NCBI RefSeq assembly: GCF_000014565.1
Contig: NC_008268.1
Location: 7,320,501 to 7,384,500 of the forward strand
Origin: Rhodococcus jostii RHA1
GTDB lineage: Bacteria > Actinomycetota > Actinomycetes > Mycobacteriales > Mycobacteriaceae
Direction of reading: 5' to 3'
DNA length: 64,000 nt
Shown here: positions 38,025-49,616 of the stretch, in pieces
Layout: each line of letters begins with the position of its first letter
Position numbering within the stretch: the stretch's first letter is position 1
Made by a program: the position numbers and the translations under genes
The notes under the pieces: model-generated
What the model was told of the DNA's origin: nothing
Database searches by the model: none
Seen by the model: the letters and a program-made list of their open reading frames with translations, nothing else

Positions 38025-39041
38025 TCAGGCACCCGCTTTCGTGGCGGCCTCGCTCAGTTGAGGTGTCAGCTTGTCCAGCACCCACGGAGTCGCGAGAACG
38101 CTGGTCTGGCTGAGCCCCGAGATGATCTTCGTGTCCGACAGCGTGACCGCGGTTCCACGCCCGATGGCACCGAGGTTCGCGTAGGCCGGGTTCGCGGCGA
38201 CGGTGGTGTTCTCCGGGACGAACGCGACCACGACGTCGGCGTCGACATCGGAGATGTTCTCCACGGAGATGTCGGCGAAGAACTTGTCCGGATCATTGGC
38301 AGCGGCCAGCTTCTGCACGCCGGGAGACACGGTGAACCCGAGCTGGGTCAGCACCTGGACGCGGGGATCGGAGGGCATGTAGACGTTGACCGTCGCGGCA
38401 TCGGTGTCGAAGTTGATCACCGAGATCGTCTTGCCGGCGAACTCGGGGTGCGCGGCGGCGGTCCGAGCGAGGGTGTCGTCGAGACCGGCCACCAGCTGTT
38501 CCGCCTCGGCGCTCTTGCCGAGTGCCTGTCCGACCAGCGTGGTCTGGTCCTGCCACGTGGTCTGCCACGCCTTGTCCGGGTAGGCCACCGTGGGGGCGAT
38601 TCCCGACAGCTTCTCGTACGTCGCCTGGTCGAATCCCTCGTAGGGGGCGAGCACGACGTCCGGCGCCAGCGAGGCGACGCCCTCGATGGGGGTGGACGTG
38701 GCCGTGTCGAGCAACGTGGTCTCGGACGGATCGAATCGGTCCTGCAGCCAGGGCATCACACCGTTCGCCTCGGCGCCGTACGTGTACTTCGGCATGCCGA
38801 CCGGTGCCTCGCCGAGCGCGTAGACGACGTCCTGGGCATTCCATCCGAGCGTGACGATACGTTCGGGTGCCGCGTCGAGGGTGGTCGATCCGAACGTGTT
38901 CTCGAGGGTGACCGGAAACCCCTCACCGGACGCTTCCGTGGTTCCTCCGCTGTCGCCGGACGAGCACGCGGCGAGGAAGAGGGACGAACTGGTCACGGCG
39001 AGTGCGACGGCGATCTGACGTCTGGCGGTGGGTGCGAACAC
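38025..39041 (-). CDS. Ferric-siderophore ABC transporter substrate-binding lipoprotein
   Basis: A 338-residue FepB/FecB-class binding protein. The signal peptide ends in the lipobox LAACSS, so the mature protein is lipid-anchored outside the membrane. The periplasmic-binding fold is recognised by PERIVTLGWNAQDVVYALGE and a single long helix between lobes. The GTG start lies 27 bases downstream of a near-consensus IdeR box, strong evidence for iron-repressed expression. No permease or ATPase gene is adjacent; it must use one encoded elsewhere. Confidence 0.9.
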   Translation of the reverse strand: MFAPTARRQIAVALAVTSSSLFLAACSSGDSGGTTEASGEGFPVTLENTFGSTTLDAAPERIVTLGWNAQDVVYALGEAPVGMPKYTYGAEANGVMPWLQDRFDPSETTLLDTATSTPIEGVASLAPDVVLAPYEGFDQATYEKLSGIAPTVAYPDKAWQTTWQDQTTLVGQALGKSAEAEQLVAGLDDTLARTAAAHPEFAGKTISVINFDTDAATVNVYMPSDPRVQVLTQLGFTVSPGVQKLAAANDPDKFFADISVENISDVDADVVVAFVPENTTVAANPAYANLGAIGRGTAVTLSDTKIISGLSQTSVLATPWVLDKLTPQLSEAATKAGA

Positions 39042-39068
39042 GGCAACGACTCCTTCGGGACGAAAATA

Positions 39069-39087
39069 GAAGGTAAGCCTAACCTAG
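39069..39087 (-). promoter_or_regulatory. IdeR/DtxR iron box
   Basis: On the minus strand the site reads CTAGGTTAGGCTTACCTTC, matching the 19-bp IdeR consensus TTAGGTTAGGCTAACCTAA at 15 positions. It lies just upstream of the siderophore-binding protein gene. The repressor gene itself is at 1307-2005 in this window. Confidence 0.85.
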
Positions 39088-39293
39088 ACTCGAGTGCTCG
39101 CCGGGTGGACGTCGCCACTTCGAATCACCCTGATTGAAACTTCCGGGCCCGGCCCGGCCTGGCGCATTCCCGGGTCGTTGCCGGGTTTTGGCTGGTGAGG
39201 CGGTTCGGGCCCGGCGCGGACCCGGCCGATTCGCGGGGGCGCCCCGAGCGGCGGTTCGCGGCGACTCCGGGCCCCGCCGACTGCCGTTAGCGT

Positions 39294-39321
39294 TTGTCTT
39301 CGTCCAGCTCACACGCACTAT
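39294..39321 (+). promoter_or_regulatory. Candidate promoter of the GntR operon
   Basis: TTGTCT (39294-39299) and CACTAT (39316-39321) are 16 bases apart. The -10 ends 14 bases before the GntR start. The preceding 39088-39293 stretch is unusually rich in GGCC and has no gene. Confidence 0.3.
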
Positions 39322-39335
39322 CGACGAAGGAAACC

Positions 39336-40115
39336 ATGGTGGTGAATCCGACTCCCCTCCAGACGGCGTCGCGCAGTTCCCGCGCAGACCATGCGCGCAG
39401 ATTCGCCGACCTGCTCCGTCAGCAGATCCACGCTGACTCCTTCGCCGAGCGCGGATTGCCGTCGGAATCGGAGCTGGCCGCCGAGTTCGGCGTGTCGCGC
39501 AATGCGGTACGCGACGGACTGGCACTGCTCAAGCAAGAGGGGCTCATCGACCGGGCCCCGCGGGTGGGAACCCACGTGGCGCAGCGCAAGTACGACCACG
39601 GTCTCGACGCCCTGCTCGGGCTGAAGGAGACGCTGAAGGGGCACGGAGAGGTCCGCAACGACGTCCGCGCCGCCCGGGAGATCAGCCCGCCGCCCGCCGT
39701 CGCCCGCCGCCTGCAGCTGGAGCCGGGCGACCCCGCTGTCTACATCGAACGGGTGCGGTACCTGGGCGACCTGCCGCTCAGCCTGGACCTCACCTACCTC
39801 GTCCCCGACATCGGAGCCGAAATCCTCGGTCACGACCTCGAAACCAACGACGTGTTCGCACTGATCGAGGAAGTCTGCGGTCAGCCCCTCGGCTCCGCCG
39901 ATCTGGCGATCGAATCCGTGAACGCCGACGCCCATTCCGCCGCGAACCTCCAGACGCCCGAGGGTGCGGCGCTCCTGTTGCTCGAACGCCTCACCCGGCT
40001 CGTCGACGGACGTCCCGTCGACCTCGAATACATCCGCATGCGCGGTGACCGAATCACCATGCGCAGCAGCCTCGTCCGCCGACCCGACATCACGAACTGG
40101 GAGCTCACCTCATGA
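39336..40115 (+). CDS. GntR-family (HutC/UTRA) regulator
   Basis: A 259-residue regulator, first gene of the operon. The GntR helix-turn-helix is LPSESELAAEFGVSRNAVRD with the wing GLIDRAPRVGTHVA; residues about 95-255 are a UTRA effector domain (PAVYIERVRYLGDLPLSLDL, LEYIRMRGDRI). The ATG at 39336 has GAAGGAAACC ahead. Its stop overlaps the ferredoxin start by four bases, so it is co-translated with the genes it probably controls. UTRA domains bind small acidic or sugar-like ligands; the ligand here is likely the transported compound or a product (inference). Confidence 0.9.
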   Translation: MVVNPTPLQTASRSSRADHARRFADLLRQQIHADSFAERGLPSESELAAEFGVSRNAVRDGLALLKQEGLIDRAPRVGTHVAQRKYDHGLDALLGLKETLKGHGEVRNDVRAAREISPPPAVARRLQLEPGDPAVYIERVRYLGDLPLSLDLTYLVPDIGAEILGHDLETNDVFALIEEVCGQPLGSADLAIESVNADAHSAANLQTPEGAALLLLERLTRLVDGRPVDLEYIRMRGDRITMRSSLVRRPDITNWELTS

Positions 40116-40339
40116 CCTTGGTCAATCAACGAGCAGACGTACCCGTCACCATCGACGAGTCGCTGTGCATCGAGGGCTGCACCCTGTGCGTCGAGATCTG
40201 CCCACTCGATTCGCTGGCCATCAACCCGGAGAACGGCAAGGCCTTCATGCACGTCGACGAATGCTGGTACTGCGGTCCCTGCGCGGCTCGCTGCCCGACC
40301 GGCGCGGTCACCGTGAACATGCCGTACCTCCTCCGCTGA
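40112..40339 (+). CDS. AprB-like ferredoxin with two [4Fe-4S] motifs
   Basis: A 75-residue cytoplasmic ferredoxin. Cys 19, 23, 26 and 30 (CIEGCTLCVEICP) and Cys 51, 54, 57 and 61 (CWYCGPCAARCP) supply two clusters. The second motif with the following TGAVTVNMPYLLR resembles the end of adenylylsulfate reductase beta subunit AprB, which has CWECYSCVKMCP. It lacks the long C-terminal tail of AprB. The start overlaps the GntR stop (ATGA). Most likely it passes electrons to or from the AprA-like flavoprotein of the same operon. Confidence 0.88.
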   Translation: MTLVNQRADVPVTIDESLCIEGCTLCVEICPLDSLAINPENGKAFMHVDECWYCGPCAARCPTGAVTVNMPYLLR

Positions 40340-40355
40340 GCGAAAGACCACCCAG

Positions 40356-41786
40356 ATGAAGCGACGCTCTTCCACCTTCGCGATCGCCGCCGCGGCACTG
40401 ACACTCGTGGCGACGAGTTGCTCCCTCGAACCGTCGGCCGACAACGGGGACGCGGTCACGCTCGTGATCGGGTACCAGTCCAAGACGATCAACACCGTCA
40501 CCGCCGGAACGCTGCTGCGCGCGCAGGGATACCTCGAACAGCGCCTGCAGGACGTGACGGAGCAGACCGGGACGAAGTACTCCGTCGAGTGGCAGGACTA
40601 CGACACCGGTGCGCCGATCACCGCCCAGATGGTGGCCGAGAAGATCGACATCGGATCGATGGGCGACTACCCGATGCTGATCAACGGCTCCCGCACCCAG
40701 GCGAATCCGCGCTCGAAGACGGAGATCGTCTCGGTCACCGGCTACAACCCGAACGGCGCACTGAACATGGTGGTGGTGCCGCCGAATTCACCGGCCACCG
40801 CCCTCGGCGACCTGGCCGGCAAGAAAGTGTCCGCGAGCGTCGGCTCCGCAGGTCACGGCACCCTCGTGCAGGCCCTCGACCGCGCCGGAATCGACCCGGG
40901 CACCGGCGTCGAGGTGCTCAACCAGCAGCCGCAGGTCGGATCCTCCGCCCTGGAATCCGGTCAGGTGGCGGCGCTGTCGCAGTTCGTCGCCTGGCCCGGG
41001 CTTCTCGTCTTCCAGGACAAGGCCAAGCTGCTGTTCGACGGCGCCGAACTCCGAACCCCGACCCTGCACGGTGTGGTGGCCCGCGAGGCCTACGCGGACG
41101 AACACCCCGAGGTTCTCGACGCGTTCCTCCGGGCGCAGCTCGACGCCACGCGGTTCGTCCAGACGCAACCGCTCGAGGCGTCGCGGATCGTGGCCGACGC
41201 GAGCGGCCTGCCCCAGGAGGTCGTGTACCTGTACAACGGCCCGGGCGGCACGTCGTTCGACACCACGCTCAAGCCCGGCCTGATCGGTGCGCTGAAGAAC
41301 GATGTGCCGTACCTGAAGTCGATCGGCGACTTCGCCGACCTCGACGTCGACGGTTTCGTGAACGACGCTCCGCTCCGGTCCGCGTTCGAGGCCGACGGGC
41401 AGGACTACGACGCCACGCTCGCGTCCACCGCCAACCCGACGTCGGTCACCGGCACCGATCCCGTGTGCGCCACCGCCCCGGGCGATCCGTCGCTGGCCGG
41501 GGAGGTCTGGTTCGACGGCGCCACCGAGACGCAGCCGGCCGCGAACCCGACGTGCCTGCTCCGGGCGGTGAAACAGGCCCGGGCCGAGGGCCGCACCGTC
41601 CGCGCCGCGTACGTGCCCGACGCCGAACTGGGCACCCGATGGTTCGCCGACAAATCGGTGTGGGTGCGCGACGGCGACAACTTCCTGCCCTTCACCACCG
41701 GCGCCGCCGCAGACCGGTACCTGCGCGCACACCCCACGGGCGGCGTGATCACGTACGACCGCGCGGTCGAGGAGGTGCGCCAGTGA
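40356..41786 (+). CDS. SsuA/TauA/NrtA-type substrate-binding lipoprotein with NosL-like C-terminal domain
   Basis: A 476-residue exported lipoprotein; the lipobox is VATSCS at about residue 22. Residues 35-330 are a binding domain of the sulfonate/nitrate/taurine class (GYQSKTINTVTAGTLL, IDIGSMGDYPMLI, ASVGSAGHGTLVQAL). The family normally ends there at about 320 residues. Here about 110 more follow, including DAELGTRWFADKSVWVRDG and FLPFTTGAAADRYLRAH. These resemble the NosL family of copper-binding accessory proteins, though the N-terminal MxCxM copper motif of NosL is absent. Two Cys frame the linker (VCATAP and PTCLL). The permease gene overlaps its stop by four bases. Confidence 0.85.
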   Translation: MKRRSSTFAIAAAALTLVATSCSLEPSADNGDAVTLVIGYQSKTINTVTAGTLLRAQGYLEQRLQDVTEQTGTKYSVEWQDYDTGAPITAQMVAEKIDIGSMGDYPMLINGSRTQANPRSKTEIVSVTGYNPNGALNMVVVPPNSPATALGDLAGKKVSASVGSAGHGTLVQALDRAGIDPGTGVEVLNQQPQVGSSALESGQVAALSQFVAWPGLLVFQDKAKLLFDGAELRTPTLHGVVAREAYADEHPEVLDAFLRAQLDATRFVQTQPLEASRIVADASGLPQEVVYLYNGPGGTSFDTTLKPGLIGALKNDVPYLKSIGDFADLDVDGFVNDAPLRSAFEADGQDYDATLASTANPTSVTGTDPVCATAPGDPSLAGEVWFDGATETQPAANPTCLLRAVKQARAEGRTVRAAYVPDAELGTRWFADKSVWVRDGDNFLPFTTGAAADRYLRAHPTGGVITYDRAVEEVRQ

Positions 41787-42643
41787 CCACACTGCACCAG
41801 CCGACGGTCCTGGTCGATACCGAAGTCGCTGCCGAAGAACACGATCCGGCATCGACGCGCCGACGAACCTCGCCGTGGCGCTCACGCCTCGTGCGGATCA
41901 CGTCCGTGATCGCGGCGATCGTCGCATGGCAGGTGTTGACCGCCAACGACGTGCGGGTGTGGCTGCGGTTCGACACGCTTCCCACCGTCACCGACGTCGT
42001 GTCCGCGTTCGGTACCCAGTTGCAGAGCGACCTGTTCTACCTCGACCTCGGGCAGTCGCTGATCCGCATCCTCAGCGGATTCGGACTCGCGACGGTGGTG
42101 GGTGTGGCCACCGGAATCGCCCTCGGCAGATCGGAACTGTTCGCCGACGTCCTCGGTCCGCTGACGGAACTCGCACGTCCGATCCCCGCCATCGCGGTGG
42201 TGCCCGTCGCGATCCTGCTGTTCCCCAGCGACGAGGCCGGCATCGTGTTCATCACGTTCGTCGCCGCGTTCTTCCCGATCATGGTGAGCACCCGGCACGC
42301 CGTCCGGGCCCTCCCGACACTGTGGGAGGACTCCGTGCGCACCCTCGGCGGCGGACGCTGGGACGTGCTGTCCCGAGTCGTGCTGCCCGGAATCCTGCCG
42401 GGCGTCTTCGGTGGATTGTCCGTCGGGATCGGGGTGGCGTGGATCTGTGTGATCTCCGCCGAGATGATCTCCGGCAGGCTCGGAGTCGGCTACCGCACCT
42501 GGCAGGCGTACACGATCGTCGACTATCCCGGCGTCTTCGTCGGCATGATCACCATCGGCATCCTCGGATTCGCGACGTCCGGCGCAGTCGAACTGCTCGG
42601 CAGGCGCGTCACCCGCTGGCTGCCACGAGGGGAGCGCGCATGA
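41783..42643 (+). CDS. SsuC/TauC-type ABC importer permease
   Basis: A 286-residue inner-membrane permease with about six helices after a hydrophilic N-terminus of 35 residues. The EAA loop that docks on the ATPase reads LGGGRWDVLSRVVLPGILP. WICVISAEMISGRLGVGY is typical of the nitrate/sulfonate/taurine subgroup. The GTG start overlaps the binding-protein stop by four bases, and its own stop overlaps the ATPase start by four, so expression is tightly coupled. Confidence 0.92.
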   Translation: MTTLHQPTVLVDTEVAAEEHDPASTRRRTSPWRSRLVRITSVIAAIVAWQVLTANDVRVWLRFDTLPTVTDVVSAFGTQLQSDLFYLDLGQSLIRILSGFGLATVVGVATGIALGRSELFADVLGPLTELARPIPAIAVVPVAILLFPSDEAGIVFITFVAAFFPIMVSTRHAVRALPTLWEDSVRTLGGGRWDVLSRVVLPGILPGVFGGLSVGIGVAWICVISAEMISGRLGVGYRTWQAYTIVDYPGVFVGMITIGILGFATSGAVELLGRRVTRWLPRGERA

Positions 42644-43419
42644 CCGCCACAGCCGCAGCGTCCGTGGCCGCCGGCATGTCGCTGGTCCTCGACGACGTCA
42701 CCCTGTCCTACACGGGAAACCCCGTCATCCGTTCGCTGTCGCTGACCGTGGTTCCCGGCGAGATCCTCGTGCTCACCGGACCTTCGGGGTGCGGCAAGTC
42801 CACCGTGCTGCGCGCTCTGGCCGGCCTGCTGCCGCCCGATTCGGGCCGCGTCGTCGCCGACGGCGCGGCAGTGGAATCGACGTCCCGGGACCGGGCCGTC
42901 GTCTTCCAGGACAACGCGCTCCTCCCGTGGCGCACGGTGCGCTCGAACATCGAACTGGCCCTCGCACTCCGCGGCGAACCCCGCAAGGGGCGGCGTGCGA
43001 CCGCCGACCGCTGGATCGCGGAGGTGGGGCTGACCGGGTTCTGCGACTTCCTGCCCAAGAACCTGTCCGGCGGCATGCGCCAGCGAGTGCAGTTGGCGCG
43101 CGGCCTCGCCGGGGCGCCGCGGGCCGTGATGATGGACGAGCCGTTCGGCGCCCTCGACACCCAGACCCGCGGCGTCATGCAGCGACTGCTCGTCGACACG
43201 TGGAGCACTCACCCGACGACCGTGGTGTTCGTGACCCACGACGTGGACGAGGCGGTGCTGCTCGGCGACCGCATCGCGGTGCTCGGCCGGGCCGGTGAGC
43301 CGCTGCGGGCGCTCGTCGACATCCCGCACCCCCGGGACCGCGACCACCTCGACCTCCCCGACACCCGTGCCGCGCGCGCCGACGTGCTCGCCGCACTGAA
43401 CCACACTTCGGAGACCTGA
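42640..43419 (+). CDS. SsuB/TauB-type ABC importer ATPase
   Basis: A 259-residue ATPase energising the importer. Walker A GPSGCGKST, Q-loop VFQDNALLPWRTV, signature LSGGMRQRV, Walker B VMMDEPFGALD and the switch His in FVTHDVDEA are all intact. The LLPWRTV segment is characteristic of the nitrate/sulfonate/taurine subgroup. Start ATG at 42640; the stop overlaps the flavoprotein ATG by one base (TGATG). Confidence 0.94.
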   Translation: MTATAAASVAAGMSLVLDDVTLSYTGNPVIRSLSLTVVPGEILVLTGPSGCGKSTVLRALAGLLPPDSGRVVADGAAVESTSRDRAVVFQDNALLPWRTVRSNIELALALRGEPRKGRRATADRWIAEVGLTGFCDFLPKNLSGGMRQRVQLARGLAGAPRAVMMDEPFGALDTQTRGVMQRLLVDTWSTHPTTVVFVTHDVDEAVLLGDRIAVLGRAGEPLRALVDIPHPRDRDHLDLPDTRAARADVLAALNHTSET

Positions 43420-46103
43420 TGGACATCCCCGACCTCGCCGACACCGTCCGTCTCGATTGCGACGTGCTCGTGATCGGTGGCGGCACCGCCGGCACGATGG
43501 CGGCACTGACCGCCGCCGAGAACGGCGCGAACGTGCTCCTGCTCGAGAAGGCGCACGTGCGCCATTCCGGCGCGCTCGCAATGGGAATGGACGGCGTCAA
43601 CAACGCCGTCATCCCCGGCAAGGCCGAACCCGAGGACTACGTCGCCGAGATCACCAGAGCCAACGACGGAATCGTCAACCAGCGCACCGTGTACCAGACG
43701 GCGACCCGCGGTTTCGCGATGGTGCAGCGCCTCGAGAAGTACGGCGTGAAGTTCGAGAAGGACGAGTACGGCGAATACGCGGTCCGCCGGGTGCACCGCT
43801 CCGGCTCGTACGTGCTGCCGATGCCCGAGGGCAAGGACGTGAAGAAGGCCCTCTACCGGGTGCTGCGGCAGCGGAAGATGCGGGAGAAGATCCGCATCGA
43901 GAACCGCCTGATGCCCGTCCGGGTCCTGACGGAGAACGGCCGGGCCGTCGGGGCCGCGGCGCTGAACACCCGCACCGGTGAGTTCGTCGCGGTCGGGGCA
44001 AAAGCGGTGATCCTCGCGACCGGTCCGTGTGGCCGGCTCGGGCTCCCGGCGTCGGGGTACCTCTACGGCACGTACGAGAACCCGACCAACGCCGGTGACG
44101 GCTACTCGATGGCCTATCACGCGGGAGCCGAACTGAGCGGCATCGAATGCTTCCAGATCAACCCGCTGATCAAGGACTACAACGGTCCGGCGTGCGCGTA
44201 CGTCGCGAACCCGTTCGGCGGCTACCAGGTGAACGCGGAGGGGGAGCGGTTCGTCGACTCCGACTACTGGTCGGGGCAGATGATGAGCGAGGTCAAGAGT
44301 GAGATCGAATCGGCCCGCGGTCCCATCTATCTCAAGGTCAGCCACCTCCCGGAGGAAACCCTCGACACGCTCGAATCGATCCTGCACACCACCGAACGCC
44401 CCACCCGCGGCACGTTCCACGCGAACCGCGGCCACGACTACCGCAGCCACGACATCGAGATGCACATCTCCGAGATCGGCTTGTGCAGCGGACATTCCGC
44501 GTCCGGGGTGTGGGTGGACGAGCACGGCGCGACCACCGTCCCCGGCCTGTACGCGGCAGGCGACCTCGCGTGCGTCCCCCACAACTACATGATCGGCGCG
44601 TTCGTGTACGGCGACCTCGCCGGAGCGCACGCCACCGGCACCCTGCCCGGCGTCGAGGCCCCCACCGCGCTGCCCGCGGAGCAGCTGGCCGCCGCGCACG
44701 AGCTGATCTACCGGCCGCTACGCAACCCGGACGGGCCGCCGCAGCCGCAGGTCGAGTACAAGCTGCGCCGCTTCGTCAACGACTATGTCGCGCCGCCGAA
44801 GACGGCGACGAAGCTGTCGATCGCCGTCGAGACGTTCGACCGGATGGCGGGGGAGATCGCCGGGATGGGTGCGACCACCCCGCACGAGCTGATGCGCTGC
44901 GCGGAGGTCACCTTCATCCGGGACTGCGCGGAAATGGCGTCCCGCAGCTCCCTCACCAGGACCGAAAGTCGCTGGGGGCTCTACCACGAACGTGCGGATC
45001 TCCCGGAGCAGCGGGACGACGAATGGGGGTACCACCTGAATCTGCGGCGCGGCGAGAACGGCGACATGGAGTTCCTCAAGCGCCCCGTCGAGCCGTACTT
45101 CGTGCCGGTGCCCGGGCTCGATTCCCTTCCGCCGGTGGACCGGACGGTCGTACCCGTCGCGCAGCCGCCGCTGGTCGGGGGGCGCGCCCCGGTCGAGGAG
45201 CGCTCGCGCATCGCGGCGCCGGTCCGGCAGGAGCCGTCGTCACCGGCCATCGTCGCGGTCCTCGGACTCGACGCGCCGAGTGTCGCCGAACTCGCGCCAT
45301 ATCTGGCCGACGCCGACCCGCAGGTCCGCGTCACGGCCCTCTCGGTGCTGACGGAAGGAACCCCCGACGGATTCGGGGCGGCCCTCGTCGATGCCCTCGG
45401 CGACGGTGCGGTGACGGTGCGCCGCGCCGCCGCCGACGGCCTGCGCGAACTCGTCGAGGTGCTGCCGTCCGCCGACGGGCTGGCCGACCACCTGGGGTCG
45501 GGTGACGCCGTGGTCCGGGCCGCCGTGGTCGACGTCCTGCGCGCGCTGCACGCCGGTTCGGCGGAGCAGTTCCTGACGGCGCTGTCCGACGGTGATCACC
45601 ACGTCCGGATCGAAGCGGTGCGGGCGCTGGTGTCGCTGGACCGGTGGGAGTCGGTGGCGGCGGGCGCGCACGACGAGAACCGGGAAGTGCGGATCACCGT
45701 CGCGCACGGCCTGGCCACCATCGGGCTCGGCGGTGTCGACACCGTGCGCTCGCTGGCCCGCGACCGCGATCCGCTGGTGCGCGCCGCCGCGCTCACGGCG
45801 TTCGCGAGTCTGGGCTGCGACGGCGACGACGTGACCCTCGCGACGGCGGCGCTGCGGGAGTCTGCCTGGCAGATCCGGCAGGGCGCCGCGCGGGCACTCG
45901 CCGGAGCGGACCCCGAAGTCGCGGTGCCCGCGCTGGTGGACGCCCTGACGGATGCGCACCTCGACGTGCGCAAGGCCGCCGTCCTCGCGCTCGGCCGGTG
46001 GTCCGGCGACCGCGCCGCCGTCGGCGCGCTGACCACGGCCCTCGAGGACACGGACGCCGACGTGCGGGCGTACGCCCGACAGGCGCTCGTCGCCGCCCCC
46101 TGA
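43419..46103 (+). CDS. AprA-like FAD-dependent oxidoreductase fused to HEAT repeats
   Basis: An 894-residue cytoplasmic protein. Residues 1-600 are a fumarate-reductase/AprA-class flavoprotein. Its FAD fold is LVIGGGTAGTMAAL, with HSGALAMGMDGVNN, AVILATGPCGRLGLP and the C-terminal FAD-site segment VPGLYAAGDLACVPHNYMIG. The HSGALAMGMD and KDYNGPACAY segments resemble adenylylsulfate reductase AprA. A Leu stands where I recall AprA having a conserved Arg next to the latter. From about 610 to the end are nine HEAT-like repeats of about 31 residues with the recurring LxDxDxxVRxxAxxAL pattern. Last gene of the six-gene operon; a hairpin follows. Substrate unknown. It lacks a Tat signal. Confidence 0.88.
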   Translation: MDIPDLADTVRLDCDVLVIGGGTAGTMAALTAAENGANVLLLEKAHVRHSGALAMGMDGVNNAVIPGKAEPEDYVAEITRANDGIVNQRTVYQTATRGFAMVQRLEKYGVKFEKDEYGEYAVRRVHRSGSYVLPMPEGKDVKKALYRVLRQRKMREKIRIENRLMPVRVLTENGRAVGAAALNTRTGEFVAVGAKAVILATGPCGRLGLPASGYLYGTYENPTNAGDGYSMAYHAGAELSGIECFQINPLIKDYNGPACAYVANPFGGYQVNAEGERFVDSDYWSGQMMSEVKSEIESARGPIYLKVSHLPEETLDTLESILHTTERPTRGTFHANRGHDYRSHDIEMHISEIGLCSGHSASGVWVDEHGATTVPGLYAAGDLACVPHNYMIGAFVYGDLAGAHATGTLPGVEAPTALPAEQLAAAHELIYRPLRNPDGPPQPQVEYKLRRFVNDYVAPPKTATKLSIAVETFDRMAGEIAGMGATTPHELMRCAEVTFIRDCAEMASRSSLTRTESRWGLYHERADLPEQRDDEWGYHLNLRRGENGDMEFLKRPVEPYFVPVPGLDSLPPVDRTVVPVAQPPLVGGRAPVEERSRIAAPVRQEPSSPAIVAVLGLDAPSVAELAPYLADADPQVRVTALSVLTEGTPDGFGAALVDALGDGAVTVRRAAADGLRELVEVLPSADGLADHLGSGDAVVRAAVVDVLRALHAGSAEQFLTALSDGDHHVRIEAVRALVSLDRWESVAAGAHDENREVRITVAHGLATIGLGGVDTVRSLARDRDPLVRAAALTAFASLGCDGDDVTLATAALRESAWQIRQGAARALAGADPEVAVPALVDALTDAHLDVRKAAVLALGRWSGDRAAVGALTTALEDTDADVRAYARQALVAAP

Positions 46104-46107
46104 ACAG

Positions 46108-46147
46108 GTGAGTGGCGACGTGTGCCGGGGCACACGTCGCCACTCAC
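46108..46147. terminator. Strong terminator after the flavoprotein operon
   Basis: A perfect 18-bp inverted repeat with a four-base loop lies between the convergent flavoprotein and fadB stops. It is the longest stem of its type in the window along with that at 12755. Confidence 0.8.
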
Positions 46148-46153
46148 GTGGGG

Positions 46154-48262
46154 TCAGACGCTCGCGACGCCCGGTGCCAGGAACCGCTTGCCGTTGACGG
46201 CCTCGGACGTGCCGGTGCGGTCCAGGTACGGCGTGATGCCACCGTTCCAGAAGCCGAACCCGCCGCCCAGGATCAGGCAGAGGTCGATGTCCTCGGCCGC
46301 GGCGACGACACCCTCGTCGAGCATGATCTGGATCTCCTCGGCGAACGCGCGACGCGTGCGCTCCAGAACCTCTTCGGACGTGGACGCCTTGTCGCCCTGC
46401 TTCCACAGTTCGGCGACCTCGGGGTCGACGACCTGCTTGCCGTCGGCACCGTAACTCCACACCGCCGACTTCTTGGCCTCGACCAGCGCCTCGAGTCCGG
46501 GGGAGTTGTGGAAGCGTTCGGGGTACGCCTCGGCGAGGGTCTCGCCGGTGTGCAGTGCGACCGCAGGCCCGACGAGGGCCAGCAGGGTGAACGGGGTCAT
46601 CGGCATGCCGAGTTCGGCGATGGCGTTGTCGGCCACCTCGAACGGGGTGCCCTCGTCGACCGCGTTCATGACCTCACCGAGGGTGCGGATCAGCAGCCGG
46701 TTGAAGACGAACCCGGGCAGGTCGGCGGAACCGACCGCCGACTTCTTGAGCGCCTTGGCAGTGGCGAACGCCGTTGCCAGCGTGGCGTCGTCGGTCTTCT
46801 CGCCCTTGATGACCTCGAGCAGGGGCAGCACGGCGACCGGGTTGAAGAAGTGGAAGCCGACCACCCGCTCGGGGTGCTTCAGGTCCGCGGCCATCTTGGT
46901 GATCGACAGCGAGGACGTGTTGGTCGCCAGGATCGTCTCCGGGGCGATGTGCTCCTCGAGTTCGGCGAAGATCTTCTTCTTCAGATCGAGGTTCTCGAAC
47001 ACGGCCTCGATCACGAAGTCGGTCTTCGCGAACGCGGCCTTGTCCAGCGAGCCGGACACGAGACCCTTGAGACGGTTCGCCGCGTCCGGGGACAACCGGC
47101 CCTTGCCCTGCAGCTTGTCGATCTCGCCGTGGACGTAGCCGACGCCCTTGTCGATGCGCTCCTGGTCGATGTCGGTGAGGATGACCGGCACCTTGAGCTG
47201 GCGGACGAACAGCATCGCGAGCTGGCTGGCCATCAGACCGGCACCGACGATGCCGACGCCGGTGACCTTGCGCGCGAGGGACTTGTCCGGTGCGCCTGCG
47301 GGACGCTTGGCGCGCTTGTTCACCAGGTCGAACGCGTACAGGCCTGCGCGGAGCTCGTCGGCGAGCAGCAGGTCGGCGAGCGCCTCGTCCTCGGCGGCGA
47401 AGCCTTTGTCGAGCGACGCGGGATCGGTGAGATCGGTGGTCCGGGCCAGCTCGAGGAGTTCGACGGCCTTGACCGGTCCGGGGGCGTTGTTCTTGGTCTT
47501 GCCCTCGACGATCGCCTTCGCGCGGGCGATCGCGTCGTCCCAGCCCTTGCCCCGGTCGATCTCGGGTCGCGCCGGGGTGATCTCGCCGGCCAGGACCTGC
47601 GCGGCCCAGGCGAACGACTGCTCGAGGAAGTCGGCCGAACCGAACACCGCGTCGACGACGCCGAGTTCGAGGGCCTTCTTCGGGTTGAGCGTCTTGTTCT
47701 GGTTCAGCGCGTTCTCGAGGACGACGGTGACGGCGTTCGAGGGGCCGATGAGGTTGGGCAGCAACTGCGTTCCGCCCCAGCCCGGAACCAGTCCGAGGAA
47801 CGTCTCGGGCAGACCCAGTGCGCCCGCGCTCTCGGATGCGGTGCGGTAGTGGCTGTGCAACGCGACCTCGAGCCCGCCGCCGAGTGCGACGCCGTTGACG
47901 AACGCGAACGTCGGCACGGACGATTCGCGCAGCCGGCGGAACACCTTGTGCCCGAGCCGGCCGAGTTCGAGCGCCTGGTCACGGTTCGTGATGCTCGGAA
48001 CACCCTTGAGGTCCGCGCCCGCGGCGAAGATGAAGGGCTTGCCGGTGATCGCGATGGCGACGGGATGGGCGGCGAACGCCTCGTCCAGTGCGGCGTCGAG
48101 GGCCTTCAGGCCGCCCGGGCCGAACGACGACGGCTTGGTGTGGTCGAAACCGTTGTCGAGGGTGATCAGCGCGACCGGGCCCTCGATGCCGGGTACGGCG
48201 ACGATCTTGGTGTACGCGTTGGTCACGACCTCGTCGGCGAATGCCGTTGCAATGTCGGTCAT
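46154..48262 (-). CDS. fadB: Fatty acid oxidation multifunctional protein FadB (enoyl-CoA hydratase/3-hydroxyacyl-CoA dehydrogenase)
   Basis: A 702-residue bifunctional beta-oxidation enzyme. Residues 1-300 are the crotonase part, with the oxyanion-hole segments FIFAAGADLKG and GVALGGGLEVAL. From about 335 comes the dehydrogenase, with NAD fold VGIVGAGLMASQLA, GFHFFNPVAVLPLLEVI and the C-terminal domain with PGFVFNRLL. The start codon follows directly on the fadA stop with no gap. With FadA it forms the alpha2beta2 trifunctional complex. Confidence 0.95.
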   Translation of the reverse strand: MTDIATAFADEVVTNAYTKIVAVPGIEGPVALITLDNGFDHTKPSSFGPGGLKALDAALDEAFAAHPVAIAITGKPFIFAAGADLKGVPSITNRDQALELGRLGHKVFRRLRESSVPTFAFVNGVALGGGLEVALHSHYRTASESAGALGLPETFLGLVPGWGGTQLLPNLIGPSNAVTVVLENALNQNKTLNPKKALELGVVDAVFGSADFLEQSFAWAAQVLAGEITPARPEIDRGKGWDDAIARAKAIVEGKTKNNAPGPVKAVELLELARTTDLTDPASLDKGFAAEDEALADLLLADELRAGLYAFDLVNKRAKRPAGAPDKSLARKVTGVGIVGAGLMASQLAMLFVRQLKVPVILTDIDQERIDKGVGYVHGEIDKLQGKGRLSPDAANRLKGLVSGSLDKAAFAKTDFVIEAVFENLDLKKKIFAELEEHIAPETILATNTSSLSITKMAADLKHPERVVGFHFFNPVAVLPLLEVIKGEKTDDATLATAFATAKALKKSAVGSADLPGFVFNRLLIRTLGEVMNAVDEGTPFEVADNAIAELGMPMTPFTLLALVGPAVALHTGETLAEAYPERFHNSPGLEALVEAKKSAVWSYGADGKQVVDPEVAELWKQGDKASTSEEVLERTRRAFAEEIQIMLDEGVVAAAEDIDLCLILGGGFGFWNGGITPYLDRTGTSEAVNGKRFLAPGVASV

Positions 48263-49471
48263 CTACTTGGCTCCATCGAAGTTCGGGTTCTCCCAGATCA
48301 CGGTTCCGCCCATGCCCAGACCGATGCACATCGTGGTCAGGCCGTAGCGGACGTCGGGGCGCTGGGCGAACTGGCGGGACAGCTGGGTCATCAGGCGGAC
48401 ACCGGAGGACGCGAGGGGGTGGCCGCACGCGATGGCACCGCCCCACTGGTTGACTCGCGGATCGTCGTCGGCGATGCCGTAGTGCTCGAGGAACGCGAGA
48501 ACCTGAACGGCGAAGGCCTCGTTGATCTCGAACAGGCCGATGTCCTCGATCTTCAGACCGGTACGGCCCAGCAGTTTCTCGGTGGCCGGCACCGGGCCGA
48601 TGCCCATGACGGCGGGGTCGACGCCCTGGAACGCGAATCCGACCATGCGCATGCCGATCGGCAGTCCGAGTTCGAGCGCGGTGTCCTCACCGGCGAGGAG
48701 GGCCGCGGTCGCGCCGTCGTTCAGACCGGCCGCGTTACCCGCGGTGATGCGGCCCGCGGGACGGAACGGCGTCTTCAGCTTGGCGAGGTCCTCGAGCGTG
48801 GTGCCCGGTCGCGGCGGCTCGTCCTCGGTGGCCAGGCCCCAGCCCGCGGCGGAGCGGGTGGCGACGGGCACGAGGGTGTCGGCGATGAAGCCGGCCTTGC
48901 GGGCGGCCTCGTACTTGTTCTGGCTCGCGACGGCGTACGCGTCGGTGCGGTCCTTGGTGATGGTCGGGAACCGGTCGTGCAGGTTCTCGGCCGTGTTGCC
49001 CATGACGAGGGCGCTGGGGTCGACGAGGCGGTCGGCGAGGAACCGGGGGTTCGGGTCTGCGCCCTCGCCCATCGGGTGGCGGCCCATGTGCTCGACGCCG
49101 CCCGCGATCACTACGTCGTACTGGCCGAAGCCGATGCCCGACGCGGTGGTGGTGACGGACGTCATGGCGCCGGCGCACATGCGGTCGATCGCGAAACCGG
49201 GGACGGTCTCGGGGAGCCCGGCCAGGATCGCGGAGGTGCGGCCGATGGTGAGACCCTGATCGCCCGTCTGCGTGGTCGCGGCGATGGCGACCTCGTCGAT
49301 GCGCGCGGGGTCGAGCTGCGGGTTGCGGCGAAGCAGCTCGCGGATGGTCTTGACGACGAGGTCGTCCGCACGGGTCTCCGCGTAGATGCCCTTGGGGCCG
49401 GCCTTGCCGAACGGAGTGCGGATGCCGTCGACGAACACGACGTTGCGTTGAGTTGTGGTGGATGGAGCCAC
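48263..49471 (-). CDS. fadA: Acetyl-CoA acyltransferase (thiolase) FadA
   Basis: A 402-residue thiolase that cleaves 3-ketoacyl-CoA in the last step of beta-oxidation. The nucleophilic Cys is in DRMCAGAMTS, the catalytic His in NEAFAVQ and CGHPLASSG, and the second Cys in MCIGLGMGGT. The start chosen is the GTG at 49471 with AGGAGG seven bases ahead; an in-frame ATG at 49510 would add 13 non-conserved residues. First gene of fadA-fadB. Confidence 0.95.
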   Translation of the reverse strand: MAPSTTTQRNVVFVDGIRTPFGKAGPKGIYAETRADDLVVKTIRELLRRNPQLDPARIDEVAIAATTQTGDQGLTIGRTSAILAGLPETVPGFAIDRMCAGAMTSVTTTASGIGFGQYDVVIAGGVEHMGRHPMGEGADPNPRFLADRLVDPSALVMGNTAENLHDRFPTITKDRTDAYAVASQNKYEAARKAGFIADTLVPVATRSAAGWGLATEDEPPRPGTTLEDLAKLKTPFRPAGRITAGNAAGLNDGATAALLAGEDTALELGLPIGMRMVGFAFQGVDPAVMGIGPVPATEKLLGRTGLKIEDIGLFEINEAFAVQVLAFLEHYGIADDDPRVNQWGGAIACGHPLASSGVRLMTQLSRQFAQRPDVRYGLTTMCIGLGMGGTVIWENPNFDGAK

Positions 49472-49616
49472 GCGAATTCCTCCTGATGGAGCAGTTTGGT
49501 TCCGGATCACGGCCAGGCGTCCGGCCTCCAGACCAGCGTACCCCTACCGTTACTCACGGGTAACTTAATGGGTACCTCATCGGGAATTCACGCGCTCACC
49601 CCGCGCGTGCAGTCGA

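Follow-up and report, generated by a model that had tools for sequence, protein, structure and literature searches.

A Rhodococcus jostii RHA1 operon pairing an AprA-clade flavoprotein with a sulfonate-type importer is a candidate sulfur-scavenging system

The window analysed here is a 64,000-nucleotide stretch of Rhodococcus jostii RHA1 (contig NC_008268.1, positions 7,320,501 to 7,384,500 of the forward strand; the assembly comprises 9,702,737 bases in 4 contigs). At 39336-46103 it carries six open reading frames (ORFs), all on the + strand, in the order gntR, fdx (ferredoxin), substrate-binding lipoprotein (SBP), permease, ATPase and flavoprotein-HEAT, and the locus raises the question of what compound its ATP-binding cassette (ABC) importer brings in and what the flavoprotein then does with it. 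Neighbouring ORFs overlap by 4, 4, 4 and 1 bases and the single gap is 16 bases; a preliminary description made from the sequence had given this layout, with its domains and a terminal hairpin, and all ORFs and domains were confirmed. That operon picture stands, though it omitted the HEAT domain, the DUF971/Mrp, sulfite-exporter and FdxA/ferredoxin-NADP reductase companions, a sulfatase twin of the importer and the upstream boxes. The reading that we favour, at slightly less than even confidence, is a GntR-controlled sulfur-scavenging operon in which a sulfo compound would be imported and then reductively cleaved to sulfite; we infer the substrate class, the reductive direction, the attack of flavin N5 on sulfur, the sulfite product and the role of the HEAT part.

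The importer had been called SsuABC-type, and its SBP does have an SsuA/TauA-type fold, with TauA and SsuA as its nearest relatives. Unlike SsuABC and TauABC systems, the window SBP lies under the curated cut-offs, including that for SsuA (TIGR01728, 126.6 vs 163.5 bits; TIGR01729, 72.5 vs 304.25), it has an extra C-terminal domain, possibly NosL-like, and its operon is without SsuD or TauD. This C-terminal domain is barely covered by any fold match; the NosL model PF05573 (gathering score 24) scored 25.8 in L090, 18.9 in L088 and 15.9 in L089, and the window was unlisted.

The same importer family was found in the company of a sulfatase. A Paraburkholderia plasmid (L124) has the order GntR-SBP-permease-ATPase-arylsulfatase-FGE-SulP, and a Gordonia plasmid (L121) carries FGE, GntR, arylsulfatase and importer, the two arylsulfatases being 70% identical. 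Six more regions around related SBPs held the sulfatase in four cases (L163-L166) and the flavoprotein in two (L167, L168). Across the six twin loci, the sulfatases contain CTPTR (6/6), which matches the formylglycine sulfatase motif Cys-x-Pro-x-Arg, and no leader was found before their catalytic domains (for L121, reading from the annotated start); SulP is present in 6/6 (partial in L121) and the FGE maturase in 5/6. In L174 and L177 the same sulfatase occurs and the importer is absent from the stretch examined. These islands share with the R. jostii operon the SBP family, a homologous GntR (37-48% identical to that of the window) and, in actinobacterial islands, a similar box pair, but they have a hydrolytic sulfatase, FGE and SulP rather than flavoprotein, ferredoxin and HEAT, and a different box spacing. 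In an SBP tree of 42 rows, sulfatase-paired importers stand at two places, each amid flavoprotein-paired ones, a placement that the starred branches require; the tree does not say in which order the two partners were acquired. Among actinobacterial SBPs, the 5 paired with a sulfatase differ from the 20 paired with the flavoprotein at six fixed positions, T49N and H167D among them; in the Paraburkholderia SBPs these two positions are unchanged. What the two enzymes share, on the best-supported view, is an imported substrate whose sulfo group can be cleaved. Its hydrolysis would give sulfate, hence SulP beside the sulfatase, and its reduction would give sulfite, hence exporters of the TauE/SafE and YeiH types.

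Such exporters do accompany the flavoprotein module in some lineages, with the proviso that our counts of sulfur-related neighbours have no background control rate. L111, L113 and L125 have both a TauE/SafE sulfite exporter next to the module and a YeiH-type exporter, and L119 has an adjoining TauE/SafE exporter (L111/L125, like L088/L120 and L092/L123, are near-duplicates). In Nostoc, methionine/cysteine synthesis genes and YeeE lie within ~10 kb of the module; in Paraburkholderia, 3-mercaptopropionate dioxygenase and rhodanese are nearby; and sulfonate-type transporters or flavin monooxygenases occur near it in L114, L116, L118 and L126. In keeping with a reductase that needs an electron supply, L114 and L127 encode both FdxA and ferredoxin-NADP reductase, and L117 and L167 encode FdxA. 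No sulfur-gene neighbours were recognised around the actinobacterial loci, where ORF clusters are largely shadow frames. R. jostii RHA1 has PAPS_reduct-family genes (CysH and CysD not separated) side by side with sulfite-reductase-family genes, and sulfite formed by the operon could therefore be assimilated.

Some of these neighbours would also suit a C-sulfonate, desulfonated by the flavoprotein and ferredoxin either reductively or after desaturation, as an oxygen-independent counterpart of SsuD/TauD. The TauA/SsuA affinity of the SBP points in this direction, as do a nearby sulfonate ABC set in Methylobacterium, an SsuA-type ABC transporter with an FMN monooxygenase in Cupriavidus, LLM oxidoreductases near the module in Mesorhizobium and Sinorhizobium, and the sulfite exporters themselves. 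We nevertheless consider this substrate class unlikely, since the importer family is paired with formylglycine sulfatase at two places in the tree and such a sulfatase is not expected to cleave C-S bonds; for flavin N5 attack, moreover, a C-S bond offers a poor leaving group. Acquisition of nitrogen or another non-sulfur nutrient through a nitrate-, cyanate- or pyrimidine-type NMT1 importer, the sulfur neighbours being coincidental, is improbable. The ligands of NMT1 folds also include nitrate, bicarbonate and thiamine precursors, thiC, thiO, thiS and thiazole-synthase genes lie upstream in Rhizobium, and an ammonium transporter with glnK lies downstream in Aquabacterium, but the sulfatase twin under a homologous regulator, with similar boxes in actinobacterial cases, and the sulfite exporters in four loci would both be hard to explain.

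What the flavoprotein itself might do was approached through its family and residues. It is the sole close copy in R. jostii RHA1, the next three matches being 27-30% identical over most of the part that binds flavin adenine dinucleotide (FAD). It scores 1802 bits against NF010374 (cut-off 1196), and this family (NF010374/NF006131) is named 'fumarate reductase/succinate dehydrogenase flavoprotein subunit', an enzyme name unsupported by the catalytic residues. In a family-profile search the nearest solved chains were the alpha subunit of 3′-phosphoadenosine 5′-phosphosulfate (PAPS) reductase (8a8o_A, E 4e-76) and then AprA (1jnr, 1e-53), with SdhA (1nek, 5e-38) well behind, which upholds the earlier comparison with AprA. 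The AprA models TIGR02061 (124.2 vs 641.75) and NF005331 (266.2 vs 557 bits) score well under their cut-offs; the AprA-type control L107 reached 808 bits with NF005331, over the cut-off, and 506 with TIGR02061, under it. AlphaFold modelled the flavoprotein poorly (pLDDT 50.8), and this model was left unused.

Arg265, a catalytic residue of AprA, and His398 of the same protein behave differently in the 104 flavoproteins of our locus set (83 actinobacterial, 21 other). The Arg265 position is Leu250 in 104/104, and it stays Arg in 3/3 AprA-type actinobacterial controls (L107-L109, of which only L107 was model-scanned), while the His398 equivalent, His359, is kept in 104/104, as is Asn61, equivalent to Asn74. 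Of two AprA contact residues for adenosine 5′-phosphosulfate (APS), Gln145 corresponds to Val132 in 104/104 and Glu141 to residue 128, which is Ser, Leu, Met or Val (83/9/8/4) and Ser in the window. Cys244, Cys259 and Cys356 are invariant in 104/104 and absent from L107-L109. The catalytic residues of SdhA are His242 and Arg286; aligned via L002, a same-genome paralogue taken from the alignment to be of the succinate dehydrogenase (SDH) type, they correspond to Asn248 (104/104) and to Asn, Gly or Ser264 (83/18/3). These altered AprA and SdhA positions, together with the added invariant cysteines, mark the flavoprotein, on sequence grounds, as a distinct family in the AprA clade that is neither AprA nor PAPS reductase.

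A C-C reductase or dehydrogenase of the fumarate-reductase kind, acting on an imported carboxylate or sulfo-carboxylate with sulfur freed elsewhere, would agree with superfamily membership and with the NCBI name, but the SdhA catalytic residues are lost and the SDH model gives 136 vs a cut-off of 567 bits, which makes this very improbable. One observation weighs against a family distinct from PAPS reductase: His126-Arg127-Ser128 of the window aligns with the PAPS loop Lys120-Arg121-Ser122 of MtPAPSR. MtPAPSR is reported to be an AprBA-like alpha2beta2 enzyme reducing PAPS, and Gln145 of AfAPSR and Lys120/Arg121/Ser122 of MtPAPSR are named as specificity residues (PMC10322725). The idea of a further PAPS or APS reductase serving sulfate assimilation, like this Methanothermococcus enzyme, is nonetheless the remotest of the readings even with MtPAPSR alpha as closest solved relative, given the Leu and Val substitutions, the AprA model scores, a loop in which residue 126 is always His (104) while 127 (Arg 87, His 17) and 128 (Ser 83; Leu, Met or Val 21) vary, the lack of any ATP-sulfurylase annotated beside the module in plasmid stretches (no dedicated search was made), an importer that would have no point, and the genome's own PAPS_reduct-family genes. 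The APS and sulfite put forward earlier as substrates are likewise weak guesses, because the residue tests oppose an APS/sulfite enzyme.

The partner ferredoxin had been said to end like AprB, and CWxCxxCxxxCP was found in 101/101 ferredoxin matches, the CWxC second-cluster motif being also a feature of AprB. It does not reach the AprB model (TIGR02060, 31 vs 135.65 bits); its solved matches include AprB and PAPSR-beta chains, and polyferredoxins score higher. Compared with AprBA, then, the fold, the CWxC motif and the His398 and Asn74 equivalents are alike, whereas Arg265 is replaced by Leu, Gln145 by Val and, in the window, Glu141 by Ser, and the ferredoxin has 75 residues against 150 (1jnr_B). 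MtPAPSR (8a8o) resembles the pair in its same-clade FAD alpha subunit, two-cluster ferredoxin beta subunit, C-terminal R.E[ST]RW..Y motif and the His of GGH; in contrast, the window flavoprotein is without the catalytic Arg, has another substrate loop, three added invariant Cys and a HEAT fusion, comes with a dedicated importer, and is served by a ferredoxin of 75 rather than 104 residues.

Under the sulfur-scavenging reading, the importer would take up a small organic anion with a sulfo group, for which sulfate esters and sulfamate-type compounds are the likeliest candidates, and the dicluster ferredoxin would hand low-potential electrons to the FAD of the flavoprotein. The reduced flavin would attack the sulfo-group sulfur in AprA-like chemistry, but with another leaving group, releasing sulfite for assimilation via the genome's sulfite-reductase-family genes, to which some lineages would add sulfite/sulfate exporters. 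Flavin N5 attack on sulfo sulfur is proposed for AprA-clade enzymes (PMC10322725), and the altered pocket, as predicted from its residues, fits another leaving group. The bolder claim, that this is a new sulfur-releasing enzyme, a ferredoxin-driven flavoprotein cleaving sulfate esters or sulfamates directly to sulfite as a non-hydrolytic alternative to sulfatases, is speculative, and we regard it as rather doubtful. Were it true, thousands of database proteins would carry a wrong 'fumarate reductase' name, ATP-dependent sulfate activation would be bypassed, and both the sulfur cycle and sulfur scavenging would gain a route needing neither hydrolysis nor oxygen. Organic forms make up most of the sulfur in soil, and hosts of the module include plant symbionts, soil actinomycetes, cyanobacteria and Acinetobacter. 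Because a sulfatase takes the place of the flavoprotein under a homologous regulator, the substrate question lends itself to direct testing.

Conservation was assessed in a GTDB scan that gave at least 583 encoding stretches, the best 80 of which were fetched, so that the sample leans to close relatives. All six genes were matched in 75/80 of these other actinobacterial loci. Contig ends interrupt L034, L059, L061 and L066, and in L065, a 4,280-base contig of a Mycobacterium metagenome-assembled genome, the ferredoxin lies ~110 bases 5′ of the flavoprotein and no transporter separates them, which sets this order apart from that in other actinobacterial loci. By BLAST, the 104 flavoprotein loci contain the ferredoxin in 100 (the remaining 4 being those interrupted by contig ends), the SBP in 98 (one, L112, at 26% identity only), the permease and the ATPase in 101 each (the L118 and L128 matches may belong to different transporters) and GntR in 87. 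The genes thus co-occur, and the possibility that they are rarely found together fails.

The module extends beyond actinomycetes: it occurs in Actinomycetota, Pseudomonadota and Cyanobacteriota, with rearranged gene order in the latter two. Non-actinobacterial loci came from plasmid records, an uneven phylum sample in which some multi-megabase A. baumannii records may be chromosomes. Orthologues were found, among others, in Paraburkholderia, Cupriavidus, Aquabacterium, Variovorax, Acinetobacter, Methylocystis, Acidithiobacillus, Rhizobium, Sinorhizobium, Mesorhizobium, Bradyrhizobium and Methylobacterium, and in the cyanobacteria Pseudanabaena, Nostoc and Leptolyngbya; a database protein search found the family common in Pseudomonas. 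Among 396 genomes drawn from the phylum Actinomycetota, 12 were above the flavoprotein family cut-off, a patchy spread that indicates an accessory operon. Of 7,996 scored database proteins, 6,376 matched the Acinetobacter flavoprotein at E <= 1e-100, some of which may be AprA-type, and most source-named entries among the 120 matches listed were called fumarate reductases. One source labels the Rhodococcus wratislaviensis orthologue 'Putative reductase (alkanesulfonate metabolism)' and shows no evidence for this annotation.

The gene set had been thought to match no described pathway, and no description was found in the open-access literature, subscription papers being outside this coverage; the operon appears undescribed. 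In the accessible parts of three Paraburkholderia symbiosis transcriptomes (PMC5748707, PMC5979394, PMC8305402) sulfonate transporters are mentioned and the cluster is not identifiable. The term 'fumarate reductase' is absent from the accessible parts of a Gordonia NB4-1Y transcriptome (PMC7661421) and a Rhodococcus qingshengii IGTS8 proteome (PMC8557817), two strains in which presence of the operon was unchecked.

The domain limits of the window flavoprotein are ~residues 1-570 for the FAD part and ~600-890 for the C-terminal HEAT repeats. An ORF of more than 800 residues, with HEAT fused, was found in 82/83 actinobacterial loci, the exception being L167 (589 residues). Outside actinobacteria HEAT is a separate gene, by BLAST in 19/21 loci and by annotation in the other two (L111 and L125); the 870-residue flavoprotein ORF of L092 was read as an upstream start extension. 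In several lineages the cluster also includes a DUF971 protein or an Mrp/ApbC iron-sulfur carrier, a hint of iron-sulfur maturation. L167 (genome G594, same family) has FdxA and an Mrp-like gene with its HEAT-free flavoprotein; the sister group of its SBP is the sulfatase-paired clade of actinobacteria, and L167 is possibly an intermediate.

The window GntR has no close paralogue in R. jostii RHA1 (best 28% identical, search at E <= 1e-15). An alignment of 39 hand-picked regions, out of 75 extracted upstream of actinobacterial loci, gave the box consensus GGTGGCGYAAT .. TTTnnGCWGGTC .. CGGCGCAAT, with the outer boxes mostly 53-54 bases apart upstream of gntR. In 24 genomes, 21 with the importer and 3 without, the exact pair matched 15 times: 12 matches were upstream of the operon in 12 genomes (12/21 importer genomes) and 3 elsewhere, compared with 11 for the reversed control. 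The pair, with its matches concentrated before the operon (12/15), looks like a putative local operator; a wide GntR regulon was rejected on the 3 matches away from it. At the R. jostii RHA1 operon, whose boxes are degenerate, the exact pair had no match, and a looser pattern gave 2 matches in that genome, none at the operon (control 2).

The GntR gene of the twin has a similar pair before it, spaced 65-66 bases, in 7/7 actinobacterial sulfatase loci (L121, L163-L166, L174, L177; several are close relatives). In random 270-base windows from these loci its frequency is 0.8%, for a pattern built after the sequences had been seen; the Paraburkholderia twin is without the pair. Single boxes barely exceed the control in the seven loci (25 vs 16 reversed), and the idea that they mark the twin FGE and SBP genes was rejected, the pair preceding FGE in L121 only. 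Outside regulation, a GyrB-like topoisomerase gene lies inside the sulfatase island in Gordonia (L121:2579-4516), G642 of the same family (L164:6097-8013) and Mycobacterium adipatum (L174:8579-10501), with paired DUF202 genes in L121 and L174. In the 499-residue database protein P0293 a GntR domain is fused with the same sulfatase (PF00392 + PF00884).

Table 1. Features of the operon and its flanks, in window coordinates.
Feature	Position	Strand	Remarks
Imperfect palindrome 5′ of gntR, TTCGAATCACCCTGATTGAAA in window	39119..39139		Partly conserved in other actinobacteria
Tripartite upstream element	39160..39231	+	Degenerate in R. jostii RHA1
Upstream box 1	39160-39168		TGGCGCATT
Upstream box 2	39186-39197		TTTTGGCTGGTG
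Upstream box 3	39222-39231		CCGGCCGATT
GntR/UTRA (HutC-type) regulator	39336..40115	+	PF00392, PF07702
Ferredoxin, 75 residues, two [4Fe-4S] motifs, the second AprB-like CWxCxxCxxxCP	40112..40339	+	
SBP, SsuA/TauA fold, NMT1/SsuA-type, plus C-terminal domain	40356..41786	+	
ABC permease, SsuC/TauC/NrtB type	41783..42643	+	PF00528; NCBIfam scores under cut-offs
ABC ATPase, TauB/SsuB type	42640..43419	+	PF00005; NCBIfam scores under cut-offs
AprA/PAPSR-clade FAD flavoprotein, HEAT-fused	43419..46103	+	FAD_binding_2 + Succ_DH_flav_C + HEAT repeats
Strong hairpin between operon and convergent gene ending at 46154	46108..46147	+	

The 3′ hairpin has a folding energy of -44.8 kcal/mol vs a shuffle mean of -22.3 (z -7.0; 0/200 shuffles equally stable); it is without a U-tract and was not among the terminator-scan listings. 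Rfam gave no riboswitch match in 38900-46300 at E <= 1. Both flanks are on the - strand and, judged by eye, encode a siderophore-type binding protein upstream (38025-39041) and fatty-acid oxidation genes downstream (46154-49510; multifunctional enoyl-CoA hydratase/dehydrogenase and thiolase), with no operon link seen for either.

Loci outside actinobacteria have a Crp/Fnr regulator in several cases, a LysR-type one in cyanobacteria, or GntR; the LysR-type protein is unusually long, ~670 residues, in L111:11670-13670 and L113:11394-13430. Several loci are interrupted by other genes. In Antrihabitans sp. YC2-6 (L013:2131-6914) a transporter island with a second permease/SBP set and asparaginase-like and M20-peptidase-like genes (families by eye) is inserted between ferredoxin and SBP, and in Nocardia salmonicida (L022:7780-9216) a TnpB-like transposon gene (by eye) lies between permease and ATPase. 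The module is in pieces on two Acidithiobacillus caldus plasmids: in L093 a flavoprotein fragment is followed by repeated transposase-like ORFs, and in L117 the SBP stretch overlaps ISAtc1 and a 1153-residue FAD oxidoreductase adjoins FdxA. In Nostoc edaphicum (L112:15701-18882) two HAD hydrolases, a methyltransferase, an acetyltransferase and a VOC protein separate the flavoprotein from the ferredoxin.

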